Assembly (NCBI RefSeq): GCF_900182935.1
Contig: NZ_FXUE01000003.1
Span: 186,001-250,000, forward strand
Source of the DNA: Fibrobacter sp. UWB10
Lineage (GTDB): Bacteria > Fibrobacterota > Fibrobacteria > Fibrobacterales > Fibrobacteraceae
Direction of reading: 5' to 3'
Length of the DNA stretch: 64,000 nt
The notes under the pieces were generated by a model that searched no databases, was not told the origin of the DNA, and was given only the letters and a program-made list of their open reading frames with translations. Positions 2,142-5,968 of this stretch are shown one piece after another. Numbering within the stretch: position 1 is the first letter of the stretch; each line of letters begins with the position of its first letter. Made by a program: the position numbers and the translations under genes.

Positions 2142-3455
2142 TTACTCGCCCAAGCAAGAATCCATTGCGGCGATAATCTTCTTCTTGTCCATGTGCTGGC
2201 CAATGAAGACAAGACGAATAATACGGTCGCCGTACTTTTCGTCCCACACCTTGAGCAGGTCCGGATTTTCGCGCAGAATGCGCTTCTGTTCGGCTTCGCT
2301 TTCGCTGGCGAACCAAGGTCCGAAATTCTGGGCAGAAGCCTGCTTGCCGGCCTGTTCGAACAGGTAGCTGTTATCGCGTTCGTCTTCGAACCACACGAGA
2401 CCCTTGGTGCGGATAATGCTGGTCGGATAGTCGTCGAGCAACACTTCGAAGCGTTCGCGAATCAGCGGACGGCGGCGTTCGTACACGAACGTACTGATGC
2501 CGTATTCGTCACCATGCGGATGGTCCTTGTCGTGGTGGTGGCCGCAATGGCACACGCCGTGTTCATGGTCGCAGTGGCTATGGTCTTCATGATCGTGGTC
2601 GTGTTCATCATGGTCATGGTGATGATGTTCGTGTTCGTCATGGTCATCGTCATCATCATGGTCATGATGGTGGTGATGTTCATGTTCGTCGTGGTCATCA
2701 TCTTCGTCTTCGGGAGACGTTTCCTTCATGAGTTCCTTGGCCCAAGCGGCGGAGTTGCCGACCTTTTCGAAATCGAACTGCTTGGTGTCCAAGATATCCT
2801 TCATTTCGACCTTGCCGTAATTCGTCTCGATCATCTTGGCTTCAGGCTGCAAGGCGCGAACCACGGCTTTCACGTGTTCAAGGTCGGTTTTAGACAAACT
2901 ATCAACCTTGTTCATCACGATGGTGTTGCAGAATTCAATCTGCTGAATTAGTAGGTTGGCGATGTCTTCTTCTTCGAGATCCTTGTCGAGCAGTTTCTGT
3001 CCGCCGGCGAATTCGTCGGCAAGGCGTGCTACGTCAACCACAGACACGATGTTGTCCAGATGGCAGGGGAGCGGGCGACCGTCGCGGCTCTGCAACTGGG
3101 CGCCGGCCATGCAAATGGTCTGTGCGATAGGAATCGGTTCGCAAATACCGCTCGCTTCAATCAGAATATAGTCGAACTTGTTCATTTCCAACAGTTCGGC
3201 AATTTGTTCCAAAAGGTCGGTCTTCAGGGAGCAGCAAATGCAGCCGTTCGACAGCGGAACAACCTTTCCGGAATCTTCTTTAGTGATGTTTCCGCCCTTT
3301 TCGATGAGCGTCTGGTCAATGTTCACTTCGCCGATGTCGTTCACGATCACGGCGACATGGTAACCTTGCTGGTTGTTGAGAACAAAATTGAGAAGGGTGG
3401 TTTTTCCGGCTCCGAGGTAGCCGGTGAGCAGCGTAATAGGTACTGACTTTTTCAT
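2142..3455 (-). CDS. CobW/G3E-family GTP-binding metallochaperone with His-rich insert
   Basis: 437 aa, cytoplasmic. The G3E GTPase core is clear: Walker A LLTGYLGAGKTTLLN (9-23), the metal-binding CxCC motif in SNGCICCSL (69-77), an EASGICEP switch region and an NKVD base-specificity motif. The C-terminal CobW domain carries RTKGLVWF and RLVFIGQHMDKK and ends DSCLGE. Between them, about residues 250-320 are almost only His, Asp and Glu, a probable zinc or other metal store. Related YeiR/ZNG1/CobW proteins deliver metals, most often zinc, to client enzymes; the client is not evident here. It stands alone between terminators. The His-rich DNA is a (GAT/CAT)n-like tract and may vary in length. 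Confidence 0.9.
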   Translation of the reverse strand: MKKSVPITLLTGYLGAGKTTLLNFVLNNQQGYHVAVIVNDIGEVNIDQTLIEKGGNITKEDSGKVVPLSNGCICCSLKTDLLEQIAELLEMNKFDYILIEASGICEPIPIAQTICMAGAQLQSRDGRPLPCHLDNIVSVVDVARLADEFAGGQKLLDKDLEEEDIANLLIQQIEFCNTIVMNKVDSLSKTDLEHVKAVVRALQPEAKMIETNYGKVEMKDILDTKQFDFEKVGNSAAWAKELMKETSPEDEDDDHDEHEHHHHHDHDDDDDHDEHEHHHHDHDEHDHDHEDHSHCDHEHGVCHCGHHHDKDHPHGDEYGISTFVYERRRPLIRERFEVLLDDYPTSIIRTKGLVWFEDERDNSYLFEQAGKQASAQNFGPWFASESEAEQKRILRENPDLLKVWDEKYGDRIIRLVFIGQHMDKKKIIAAMDSCLGE

Positions 3456-3783: not shown

Positions 3784-4197
3784 ATGAACTGTCGAATACT
3801 GATGCGTTTCGTTGGAACGACCGACGAACTTTCCGCCGTATATGATGCCCTGATGGAGCAGTATCCCGAAATGGATCTGCCCAGCGAAGATAGTGGCGAT
3901 TGGTACTCGGTAGACGACGTGATGATGGACGAGTACGAATGCCGCTTCGAAGAATTGCCCGAAGGCGAACTCTTGGCAATGGATGGTTCCGTACTCATCG
4001 AAGATGAACTCCCCGAAGACTTCTTTGCTGATCTTATGGAACGCTTTGAGCGTGTATTTGCCGCATTCAAGTGGTCGTCGTTAGATGTTGGTGTCGGTTG
4101 CGGAGTCAGCGATGGCTGGGGCGAATTTAATCCAGATTACGCCGACGATTATTCCGACGAAGCTAACGAAATTTCCGAAGCCGTTCTCGGCTTCTAA
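3784..4197 (+). CDS. Small acidic protein of unknown function
   Basis: 137 aa from the ATG at 3784, preceded by GGAG 7-8 bases upstream; an earlier in-frame start has no ribosome site. No family recognised. It is very acidic (runs such as SEDSGDWYSVDDVMMDEYE and a tail DYADDYSDEANE), has no signal peptide or membrane segment, and is probably a folded cytoplasmic protein: VGTTDELSAVYDAL and FFADLMERFERVFAAFKW look like two amphipathic helices. Its stop codon (TAA, 4195-4197) overlaps the stop codon of the convergent radical SAM gene (TAG on the other strand, 4196-4194), with no terminator between them. Confidence 0.75.
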   Translation: MNCRILMRFVGTTDELSAVYDALMEQYPEMDLPSEDSGDWYSVDDVMMDEYECRFEELPEGELLAMDGSVLIEDELPEDFFADLMERFERVFAAFKWSSLDVGVGCGVSDGWGEFNPDYADDYSDEANEISEAVLGF

Positions 4198-5285
4198 TCC
4201 AAGTTTTTAATCATTAAGTTGTCGCAGATTTGTGCAAGCATTCTTTCGTGCGTGCAGACTTCAGGCGATACGCCTTCGATAGAACCGGTGCTGTAAAAAG
4301 AAGTACAGGCGCATTCATGTGCGCAGCAGCGGTAGCGTATGTCGCAACCTTCGCATTCTTTTTTGTCGTTGTCCAAGAACTGCTTAATTTGTTCGCATGC
4401 GTCTTCGTCGAATCCGGTAAAGACGTTACCTTGTAAGTAAGGAGGGTTCTCGTTCGAGGTAATGAACCTCGTGCACGGGAACATATTGCCGTTGGTTGCA
4501 ACGCCAATGGCGCCGTTGTATACGTGGCAAGAATATTGCCTGTATCGCAAATTTGAAAGGTACAGCTTTATTTTGTCTTGAATCGTGCCCAGGAACATCT
4601 TGTCGCCTTTTTCGCGGCATTCCTTCCAGTACAACGCCATCTTCTGGTATTGTAAGGCAAGCCTGTCAAAATCTTCGCCGGTCCATTTGCCGTCAAAGTC
4701 GACGCTTGTAGTAAGGCTTCTGAATCCTTGCTCGTGCAACCACTTGACGCTTTCGGCAAGGGTCTCGATGTGGGCGCGCGTCACTGTGCTTAAGGCGACT
4801 GCACCTAGCTTTACGAATCGCGGGATGTGTTTCTCGATGTCCTTGAAACTGCCGCCGTTATTTACGGTACGGCGTGCTATGTTGTGGTGATGTTCCGGGC
4901 CGTCCAGCGAAAGGTAAATGCGGAAATGTTCGCGTTCGCAAAAATCAAAGAAAGAATCGTCAAAAAGCGTGCCGTTCGTGTTGACGGCAAAGTTGAGCTT
5001 AAAGTTGCTGGGAGCTTCGCCTTTGTCTATGGCTTCGGCAAGGAATGCCTTGGCGATGTTCACGCCTTTGAAAATGGCGTCTTTGCGCAGTAACGGTTCG
5101 CCACCGAAAAAAGTAATGTTCAAATAAGTTTGCTTGAAAAACAGGCTGCGTTCTAGCCCCACGCGAATCGCTTGCTCGAGCGTTTCGTCGTCCATCACGT
5201 TATGACGGGCAGATTGCGTGTCCTTATAATAACAATAGGAACAGCGCAAGTTGCACTGTTCCGTAAGGCATAGAACTAAGTTCAT
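4194..5285 (-). CDS. Radical SAM/SPASM peptide-maturase-like enzyme
   Basis: 363 aa from the ATG at 5285, which overlaps the stop of the upstream lipoprotein gene as ATGA; an in-frame start 51 bp earlier would lie inside that gene. The N-terminus MNLVLCLTEQCNLRCSYCYY holds CX3CX2C (Cys11, 15, 18) for the SAM-binding 4Fe-4S cluster, and FFGGEPLL follows near 75. The C-terminal third carries many cysteines (GNMFPC, then CEGCDIRYRCCAHECAC and VCTHE) typical of a SPASM domain with auxiliary clusters. Such proteins modify peptides (RiPP maturases) or act as sulfatase maturases; no sulfatase is nearby, while a repeat-bearing lipoprotein is directly coupled, so that protein is the likely substrate (inference). 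Confidence 0.88.
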   Translation of the reverse strand: MNLVLCLTEQCNLRCSYCYYKDTQSARHNVMDDETLEQAIRVGLERSLFFKQTYLNITFFGGEPLLRKDAIFKGVNIAKAFLAEAIDKGEAPSNFKLNFAVNTNGTLFDDSFFDFCEREHFRIYLSLDGPEHHHNIARRTVNNGGSFKDIEKHIPRFVKLGAVALSTVTRAHIETLAESVKWLHEQGFRSLTTSVDFDGKWTGEDFDRLALQYQKMALYWKECREKGDKMFLGTIQDKIKLYLSNLRYRQYSCHVYNGAIGVATNGNMFPCTRFITSNENPPYLQGNVFTGFDEDACEQIKQFLDNDKKECEGCDIRYRCCAHECACTSFYSTGSIEGVSPEVCTHERMLAQICDNLMIKNLD

Positions 5286-5968
5286 GTAATGATGTCGTCT
5301 TGTTCGAAGGTCGTTACCATGCTCGTAATCAAGCACTTTGGATTTTTAGGATCGGTGCATATGTGGATGTTGATGCAGGAAGGGTCTCCTTCGCGGCATT
5401 CCTGGCCGGTGGACGAACTGGAGGGCTGTTCTACTTCGCTCGAAGAACTTTCTTCTACAATGGGATCGCCGGCGAGCGGTACCGGTTCTTCGGCGGAACT
5501 GCTTTGCGCGTTCACTTCGCTCGAAGAACTGCTTTCGAAGTCGCTTTCATCGGGAGCTTCGATAACGCCTGCTTCAGGAGGCGGATACGGTTCATCGTAA
5601 GATGAACTGCTCAGTGGCTTAGCTTCAGAAGAAGAGCTGGATTCTGGGTAGAGATCGTCTGGAGGAATGACTCCTGCTTGAGGAGGAAAATCTGGTTCTG
5701 CTGCAGACGAAAGTGCTTCGACAGCTGAACTGCTAAGAGCTTCATGACTCAGAGGAATATCGACAACGCTCGAACTGCTCGGAGTCTCGGTTTTGGGTGC
5801 TCCGGTGTCGGGATTCTCAAGATCGGGTCTCTCTGGAGCCGCGACGGAGCCGCTTTCTTCACAAGCGGTCAATGCAACGGCTGCAATGCCGAACGAGGCG
5901 GCAATGGCGCTCTTGGCGGCCAAACTGAGCTTCGCGCTGTTTTTGACGATTTTCTTCTCGATTTTCAT
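5282..5968 (-). CDS. Repeat-containing lipoprotein, probable substrate of the adjacent radical SAM enzyme
   Basis: 228 aa. GGAAGGAG precedes the ATG at 5968. A long basic leader (MKIEKKIVKNSAKLSLAAKS) and hydrophobic segment end in lipobox LTAC (Cys36), so the mature protein should be lipid-anchored. The body is low-complexity with many Ser-only linkers. Three related units of about 30-35 aa hold a Pro-rich core: DFPPQAGVIPPDD, PYPPPEAGVIEAPDE and PVPLAGDPIVEE, each followed by SSSS(S). The C-terminal 40 residues have four Cys (QECREGDPSCINIHICTDPKNPKC). No known enzyme domain. The ATGA overlap with the radical SAM gene means coupled translation, fitting a target-plus-maturase pair; the modified residues are unknown. 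Confidence 0.8.
   Translation of the reverse strand: MKIEKKIVKNSAKLSLAAKSAIAASFGIAAVALTACEESGSVAAPERPDLENPDTGAPKTETPSSSSVVDIPLSHEALSSSAVEALSSAAEPDFPPQAGVIPPDDLYPESSSSSEAKPLSSSSYDEPYPPPEAGVIEAPDESDFESSSSSEVNAQSSSAEEPVPLAGDPIVEESSSSEVEQPSSSSTGQECREGDPSCINIHICTDPKNPKCLITSMVTTFEQDDIIT

Follow-up and report, generated by a model that had tools for sequence, protein, structure and literature searches.

A lipoprotein with glycine-centred repeat cores as the putative substrate of an adjacent radical SAM/SPASM enzyme in Fibrobacter

The window, a stretch of 64,000 nucleotides from Fibrobacter sp. UWB10 (contig NZ_FXUE01000003.1, positions 186,001 to 250,000), carries on its reverse strand a gene pair encoding a lipoprotein precursor and a radical SAM/SPASM enzyme. 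The features of the locus are listed below, with the evidence for each in brackets.

5282..5968 (-): lipoprotein precursor, 228 aa, putative substrate (universal enzyme partner in lineages A, B and C and in the outgroup genera)
5945..5968 (-): leader-like N-terminal motif MKIEKKIV, preceding the signal-peptide core (M.I.K starts upstream of enzymes; DNA pattern scan)
5861..5872 (-): lipobox LTAC, Cys36 expected to be lipidated (sequence; lipobox Cys of relatives at 27-42)
5705..5767 (-): segment VVDIPLSHEALSSSAVEALSS, conserved in class A (sequence comparison)
5666..5686 (-): core 1, PPQAGVI, aa 95-101 (sequence; motif enrichment)
5561..5581 (-): core 2, PPEAGVI, aa 130-136 (sequence; motif enrichment)
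5459..5479 (-): core 3, PLAGDPI, aa 164-170 (sequence; motif enrichment)
5333..5401 (-): Cys module ECREGDPSCINIHICTDPKNPKC, variable (relatives whose enzymes are 93-96% identical carry different modules here)
5291..5323 (-): tail SMVTTFEQDDI, invariant in class A (79 of 79 distinct class A sequences)
5282..5285 (-): ATGA overlap, coupling the lipoprotein stop to the enzyme start (sequence; upstream ORF set)
4194..5285 (-): radical SAM/SPASM enzyme, 363 aa, without RRE domain (PF04055; AlphaFold2 pLDDT 93; Foldseek)
5232..5255 (-): CX3CX2C [4Fe-4S]/SAM motif, C11, C15 and C18 (invariant)
4254..4529 (-): SPASM region, C253, C271, C311, C314, C320, C325, C327 and C344 (invariant)

Re-reading of 5282-5968 (-) confirmed the architecture described in the original prediction, i.e. 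a lipobox at Cys36, three repeat cores about 35 aa apart and a C-terminus with four Cys, as well as the overlap of the radical SAM start codon with the lipoprotein stop (ATG and TGA in ATGA). The signal peptide has a lipobox that conforms to [L][ASTVI][GAS]C, an arrangement retained in the relatives, and the product is considered a putative bacterial lipoprotein in which lipidation of Cys36 would be expected. The cores sit between Ser runs, with a core-to-core spacing of 35 and 34 aa. The four tail Cys are found at positions 191, 198, 204 and 212, and the tail contains one CX3D (CREGD), with C.D occurring in many relatives. The window lipoprotein matched no NCBIfam model, and the partner proteins tested gave nothing significant in Pfam or NCBIfam.

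The convergent gene at 3784-4197 (+) encodes an acidic protein of 137 aa with no family match. It shares its stop region with the enzyme gene, as had been noted (TAA at 4195-4197 on the forward strand, TAG at 4194-4196 on the reverse strand), and it had been proposed as a possible further component. It is, however, a core gene of the genus, present in 25 of 25 Fibrobacter genomes including those without the enzyme, and is therefore not part of the system, which it adjoins only in some species. Further along the reverse strand, sequence reading points to a GTP-binding metal-chaperone-like protein of the CobW/ZNG type with a long His/Asp-rich stretch (2142-3455) and to adjoining TatC-like and TatA-like genes (1118-2097).

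The enzyme matches Pfam PF04055, and both its CX3CX2C motif and its set of SPASM Cys are invariant across 24 members of the enzyme family. The GTG start at 5336 in the ORF list lies upstream of the conserved ATG start. The AlphaFold2 model is confident and lacks an RRE domain, since nothing precedes the first barrel strand and nothing follows the SPASM helix; no recognised leader-binding domain is visible in it. An RRE domain for leader binding is common in RiPP systems, yet not obligatory. Foldseek with this model returned CteB (5why/5wgg) as the best match, followed by anSMEcpe and ChlB, and CteB is the closest solved structure by profile as well as by fold. The closest solved structures are peptide or protein maturases, including ChlB, which is a SPASM enzyme about as large as the one in the window and which, according to the PDB titles, was crystallised together with its precursor's leader region. 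Based on the motif Cys, PF04055 and the predicted fold, the window enzyme is a member of the radical SAM/SPASM peptide-maturase superfamily.

A search of 168 genomes across the phylum, in which E <= 1e-60 was taken as a strong match, confined strong enzyme matches to Fibrobacteraceae (64 genomes of four genera), and 112 non-identical enzymes of this family formed the enzyme set. The original prediction proposed that co-occurrence of the two genes be checked in relatives, and in the lipoprotein-type lineages it proved exceptionless: a lipoprotein lies upstream of 78 of 78 enzymes, a count comprising 72 cases from a regular-expression search plus L018, L169 and four enzymes of other genera by manual reading. 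In L018 (genome G035) the lipoprotein frame reads LKIEKKRI without an ATG at the leader, and it probably has a non-ATG start codon. The other 34 of the 112 enzymes form a single sister clade, clade D, with no lipoprotein. Partnerless upstream, they could be taken for orphans, a reading that was abandoned since a small, mostly Lys-rich protein is encoded 11-40 nt downstream in 34 of 34. The type of partner, lipoprotein or Lys-rich protein, splits exactly by enzyme clade. The genome of the window itself carries a second copy of the enzyme type (G000:C5:263452-264549; L002/L204), which belongs to clade D, lacks a lipoprotein and is followed after 28 nt by a Lys-rich protein of 99 aa (MATKIETKAVAAKSTAK...).

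The first set of upstream ORFs, picked by position alone, consisted of lipoproteins beginning with M.I.K. Across 61 Fibrobacter genomes, a DNA pattern for MKIEK..[VI] matched 65 times, and 59 of these matches fall at enzyme loci; none of 14 sampled Fibrobacter genomes without the enzyme had a match. These two results constitute the independent evidence for the leader, the invariance of the leader columns in the class A alignment being partly forced by the search expression; lipoproteins in trans were sought by pattern only. It could be argued that the gene order is an operon coincidence involving an ordinary Ser-rich Fibrobacter lipoprotein, since other lipoproteins of the same genome have Ser-rich linkers as well (L223). 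Given the pairing in every one of the 78 cases, in diverse gene contexts and in four genera, and the absence of leader-type genes from enzyme-less genomes, this explanation is very improbable. The pairing of enzyme and lipoprotein is not due to chance, as indicated by its universality in the family and by the enrichment of the core motif relative to shuffled sequences, which control lipoproteins do not exhibit.

In class A, a single enzyme is often preceded by a tandem array of two to five lipoproteins that share one design. Among species with 93-96% identical enzymes, the lipoproteins hardly differ in their N-terminal half, while the C-terminal Cys module is exchanged wholesale. Variation in repeat number, also suggested as a check, was found as well, with close relatives carrying two or three cores beside enzymes at least 93% identical. 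As far as can be judged from sequence, such arrays and variation are the behaviour of precursor genes and not of enzyme subunits. At the level of gene organisation, the locus presents what characterises a RiPP system, namely a putative maturase beside a putative precursor with a conserved leader and a variable core. Alternatively, the lipoprotein could be a partner or sensor of an enzyme that modifies some other protein; its modification is proposed from sequence, and the clade D partner is a protein of a different kind, both of which leave room for such a role. However, substrates rather than subunits are suggested by the tandem arrays of divergent lipoproteins found with one enzyme, by the cassette-like variation of the C-termini where the enzymes are near-identical and by the fact that another small partner can take the place of the lipoprotein, and we regard a partner or sensor as improbable.

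A profile-guided scan of GTDB genomes for the wider family revealed enzyme relatives at 25-35% identity in many phyla and two further types of partner encoded immediately before such enzymes. In Clostridia, Akkermansia and Kiritimatiellae, the relatives lie mostly behind lipoproteins, generally short, with the leader MKI.P.K.YKKPLYA or similar and short xG[DEV][VPI] cores repeated as LAGDV, LDGDVAI or LEGGAP. The second type comprises exported proteins of about 270 aa with the leader MK..PV..Y..P.YP, an HG.G.G..GC segment and the C-terminus QVkDFidWLK.QG.I, and is found in Clostridia, Planctomycetota, Deltaproteobacteria, Bacteroidetes and others (loci including L065, L070, L071, L073, L081, L083, L089, L098 and L108); the two proteins of this type that were tested belong to no Pfam or NCBIfam family. 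A recognisable partner is missing for some enzyme relatives. In the enzyme tree, partnered enzymes group with the Fibrobacteraceae clade, with the exception of the Akkermansia/Kiritimatiellae branch, which lies further out. Five other-phylum relatives tested against the PapB model scored 205-226 bits, all below the cut-off of 340. At locus L041, another radical SAM gene was observed upstream on the opposite strand; the gene next to it, of 204 aa and made up in part of HCK.WCKFSDPEHIK repeats, is putatively a different precursor.

Concerning the location of the modified sites, the strict core motif was compared with composition shuffles. It was observed 99 times in class C (19.7 in shuffles), 11 times in the outgroup genera (2.9), 56 times in other-phylum partners (15.9) and 74 times in class A (39.3), while control lipoproteins showed no enrichment (11 vs. 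13.5); a looser motif occurred 42 times in the Lys-rich partners of clade D (14.3). For xG[DEV][VPI], the enrichment amounts to 3.5-5-fold in other phyla, class C and the outgroup and to 1.9-fold in class A, values not fully independent of the hypothesis in that the motif was defined after inspection of the same sequences, and partly independent in that it was first seen in Fibrobacter and then recurred in other phyla. The cores are degenerate, with Gly as the sole constant residue; its preferred neighbours are L or T two residues before it, A or S directly before it (in other phyla, E or D), D, V or E directly after it and V, I or P in the next position.

In class A, a tail Cys followed by SM[VIA][TS]T, approximately C...SM[VI][TS]TFE, is present in all 79 distinct sequences; no other element beyond the signal is conserved throughout the class. 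Several class A lipoproteins have no AG core, and the cores therefore cannot be the sole conserved target. On the other hand, the C...SM tail is absent from class C, the outgroup genera and most other-phylum partners, while class B has the SM.. tail with no conserved Cys. For this reason the cores appear to be the ancestral, general target, and the tail an addition of class A that may serve as a second one. The proposal of the original prediction that the repeated PPxAGVI cores are the modified sites is thus upheld in part: the recurrence of xG cores beside related enzymes in other phyla favours them as targets, whereas in class A, to which the window lipoprotein belongs, the sites are unsettled between cores and tail.

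A competing explanation for class A places the site in the C-terminal Cys module and the SMVTTFE tail, where thioethers from Cys to Asp/Glu or to tail residues would be formed as in PapB and CteB, the AG repeats being spacers. The Cys upstream of the tail motif in every class A sequence is consistent with this, as are PapB (NF047865) as the nearest model, CteB as the nearest structure and the CREGD of the window tail together with the C.D of many relatives; moreover, PapB tolerates spacings of 0-6 (PMC9413430). Nevertheless, the partners that lack the tail mostly have no Cys there and yet accompany the same kind of enzyme, the class B tail comes without a conserved Cys, and some class A tails have no Asp/Glu near the Cys. 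We thus consider a thioether-bearing tail an unlikely, though not negligible, account of class A.

We somewhat favour a model in which the enzyme modifies the repeated cores of the adjacent lipoprotein, guided by the leader and before export. The two genes would form a stand-alone RiPP-like module of lipoprotein precursor and SPASM enzyme. The enzyme would bind the extended N-terminus of the nascent lipoprotein, MKIEKKIV, as a leader; this is the n-region before the hydrophobic core. Residues in the repeated xG[VDEI][PVI] cores, displayed on flexible Ser/Pro linkers, would then be modified in the cytoplasm, and in class A the Cys/SMVTTFE tail may be a further target of the enzyme. After export of the modified precursor by Sec, signal peptidase II would cut once to release both leader and signal, and the protein would be anchored via Cys36; no dedicated protease or transporter would then be needed, which makes this the most economical model. 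The analysis demonstrates the gene structure, the universal pairing, the conserved N-terminus, the motif enrichment across phyla, the cluster ligands and, as a prediction, the enzyme fold, from which we infer the role of the lipoprotein as substrate, the order of modification, export and cleavage, and the location of the sites.

Regarding the chemistry, a backbone (C-alpha) change at or beside the Gly would fit the core sequences. Cys thioethers at the AG cores were rejected as a general mechanism, since the Gly is invariant with variable flanks and no Cys lies near the cores. The variable neighbours of the Gly also make side-chain-specific chemistry, such as the cyclopropylglycine formation by TvgB, an incomplete explanation. 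It is conceivable, with somewhat less confidence than in the model for the window, that a hitherto undescribed class of lipoprotein RiPPs exists in multiple phyla. An extended lipoprotein signal peptide would act as the leader in this class and would be removed by signal peptidase II as leader peptidase, while a SPASM enzyme without an RRE would introduce a new, Gly-centred and Cys-independent modification at many xG[DEV][VPI] cores per protein; in one Fibrobacter clade, the same enzyme type would have turned to a Lys-rich substrate that is not a lipoprotein.

A RiPP precursor is usually a short peptide that is secreted and has a protease and an exporter of its own. The evidence presented here suggests that radical chemistry acts on long repeat proteins anchored in the membrane, which the general lipoprotein pathway would export and trim. 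The setting is fibre-degrading bacteria of the rumen and gut as well as several other phyla; substrates occur in arrays, and the enzyme tree shows a clear change of substrate. If the lipoproteins are indeed modified, a new modification of surface proteins would be added to those known, and the compact pair of genes, with its many natural variants of the substrate, would lend itself to studies of how a leader is recognised.

Among known systems, the TIGR04133 (rSAM_w_lipo)/TIGR04134 (lipo_with_rSAM) pair resembles the window locus in that the enzyme lies directly behind lipoproteins, possibly in tandem, with no transporter or protease evident. The same genome contains a genuine TIGR04133 enzyme (623 bits) behind three tandem lipoproteins with the leader KHWKKI...LFW..C, two of them with LYGCPP/LYGTPQ motifs (L223, G000:C1:101500-107500), which constitutes a second, different radical SAM-lipoprotein system. 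The pairing of a radical SAM enzyme with lipoproteins, whose display on the cell surface the original prediction regarded as an unusual location for such a modification, is not without precedent, TIGR04133/TIGR04134 being one. The shared logic and the true system in the same genome could suggest that the window locus belongs to TIGR04133/TIGR04134, but its enzyme scored 30.4 bits against a curated cut-off of 425 and its lipoprotein matched no NCBIfam model, making membership extremely unlikely. The enzyme families differ, and the L223 lipoproteins, with their own leader and LYG.P motifs, have no Ser-spaced AG cores. The TIGR04134 model itself matched nowhere, neither the window lipoprotein nor even the true TIGR04133 locus.

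PapB, the ranthipeptide maturase of freyrasin (NF047865), is the best NCBIfam match, a SPASM enzyme acting at repeated sites in one precursor. Assignment to this family was rejected at 212.5 bits (curated cut-off 340). Its precursor carries a set of repeated Cys-X3-Asp/Glu motifs, whereas the partner in the window is a lipoprotein with a single CREGD, and class C and outgroup partners have essentially no Cys in their mature repeats. The SCIFF maturase CteB (TIGR03974; PDB 5WGG/5WHY) offers the closest solved structure; the respective model gave 115.6 bits (curated cut-off 425), excluding assignment, and the SCIFF peptide has six Cys, unlike the window partner. TvgB converts the TVGG repeats of TvgA to cyclopropylglycine (PMC9062424) and is likewise a radical SAM enzyme of the SPASM type that works repeatedly on a short, Cys-free repeat containing Gly. 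However, the window lipoprotein has no TVGG, and with V, I, D, E, Y or M beside the Gly, not all cores can be explained by the Val-specific chemistry of TvgB; dioxygenase or peptidase genes as in the Tvg comparison were not seen. Bufferins are MNIO-modified RiPP precursors that carry Sec signal peptides, in some cases of the lipoprotein kind, and these may also function as the recognition region (PMC12452194). Their enzyme is an MNIO with a partner protein and modifies Cys; they set a precedent for such signal peptides on RiPP precursors. A literature search, with most subscription journals outside its reach, returned no described Fibrobacter or lipoprotein system of this kind. The present family, its repeat cores and the substrate switch thus appear undescribed in the literature searched, and the general kind is already known, since TIGR04133/TIGR04134 defines a pairing of radical SAM enzyme and lipoprotein.
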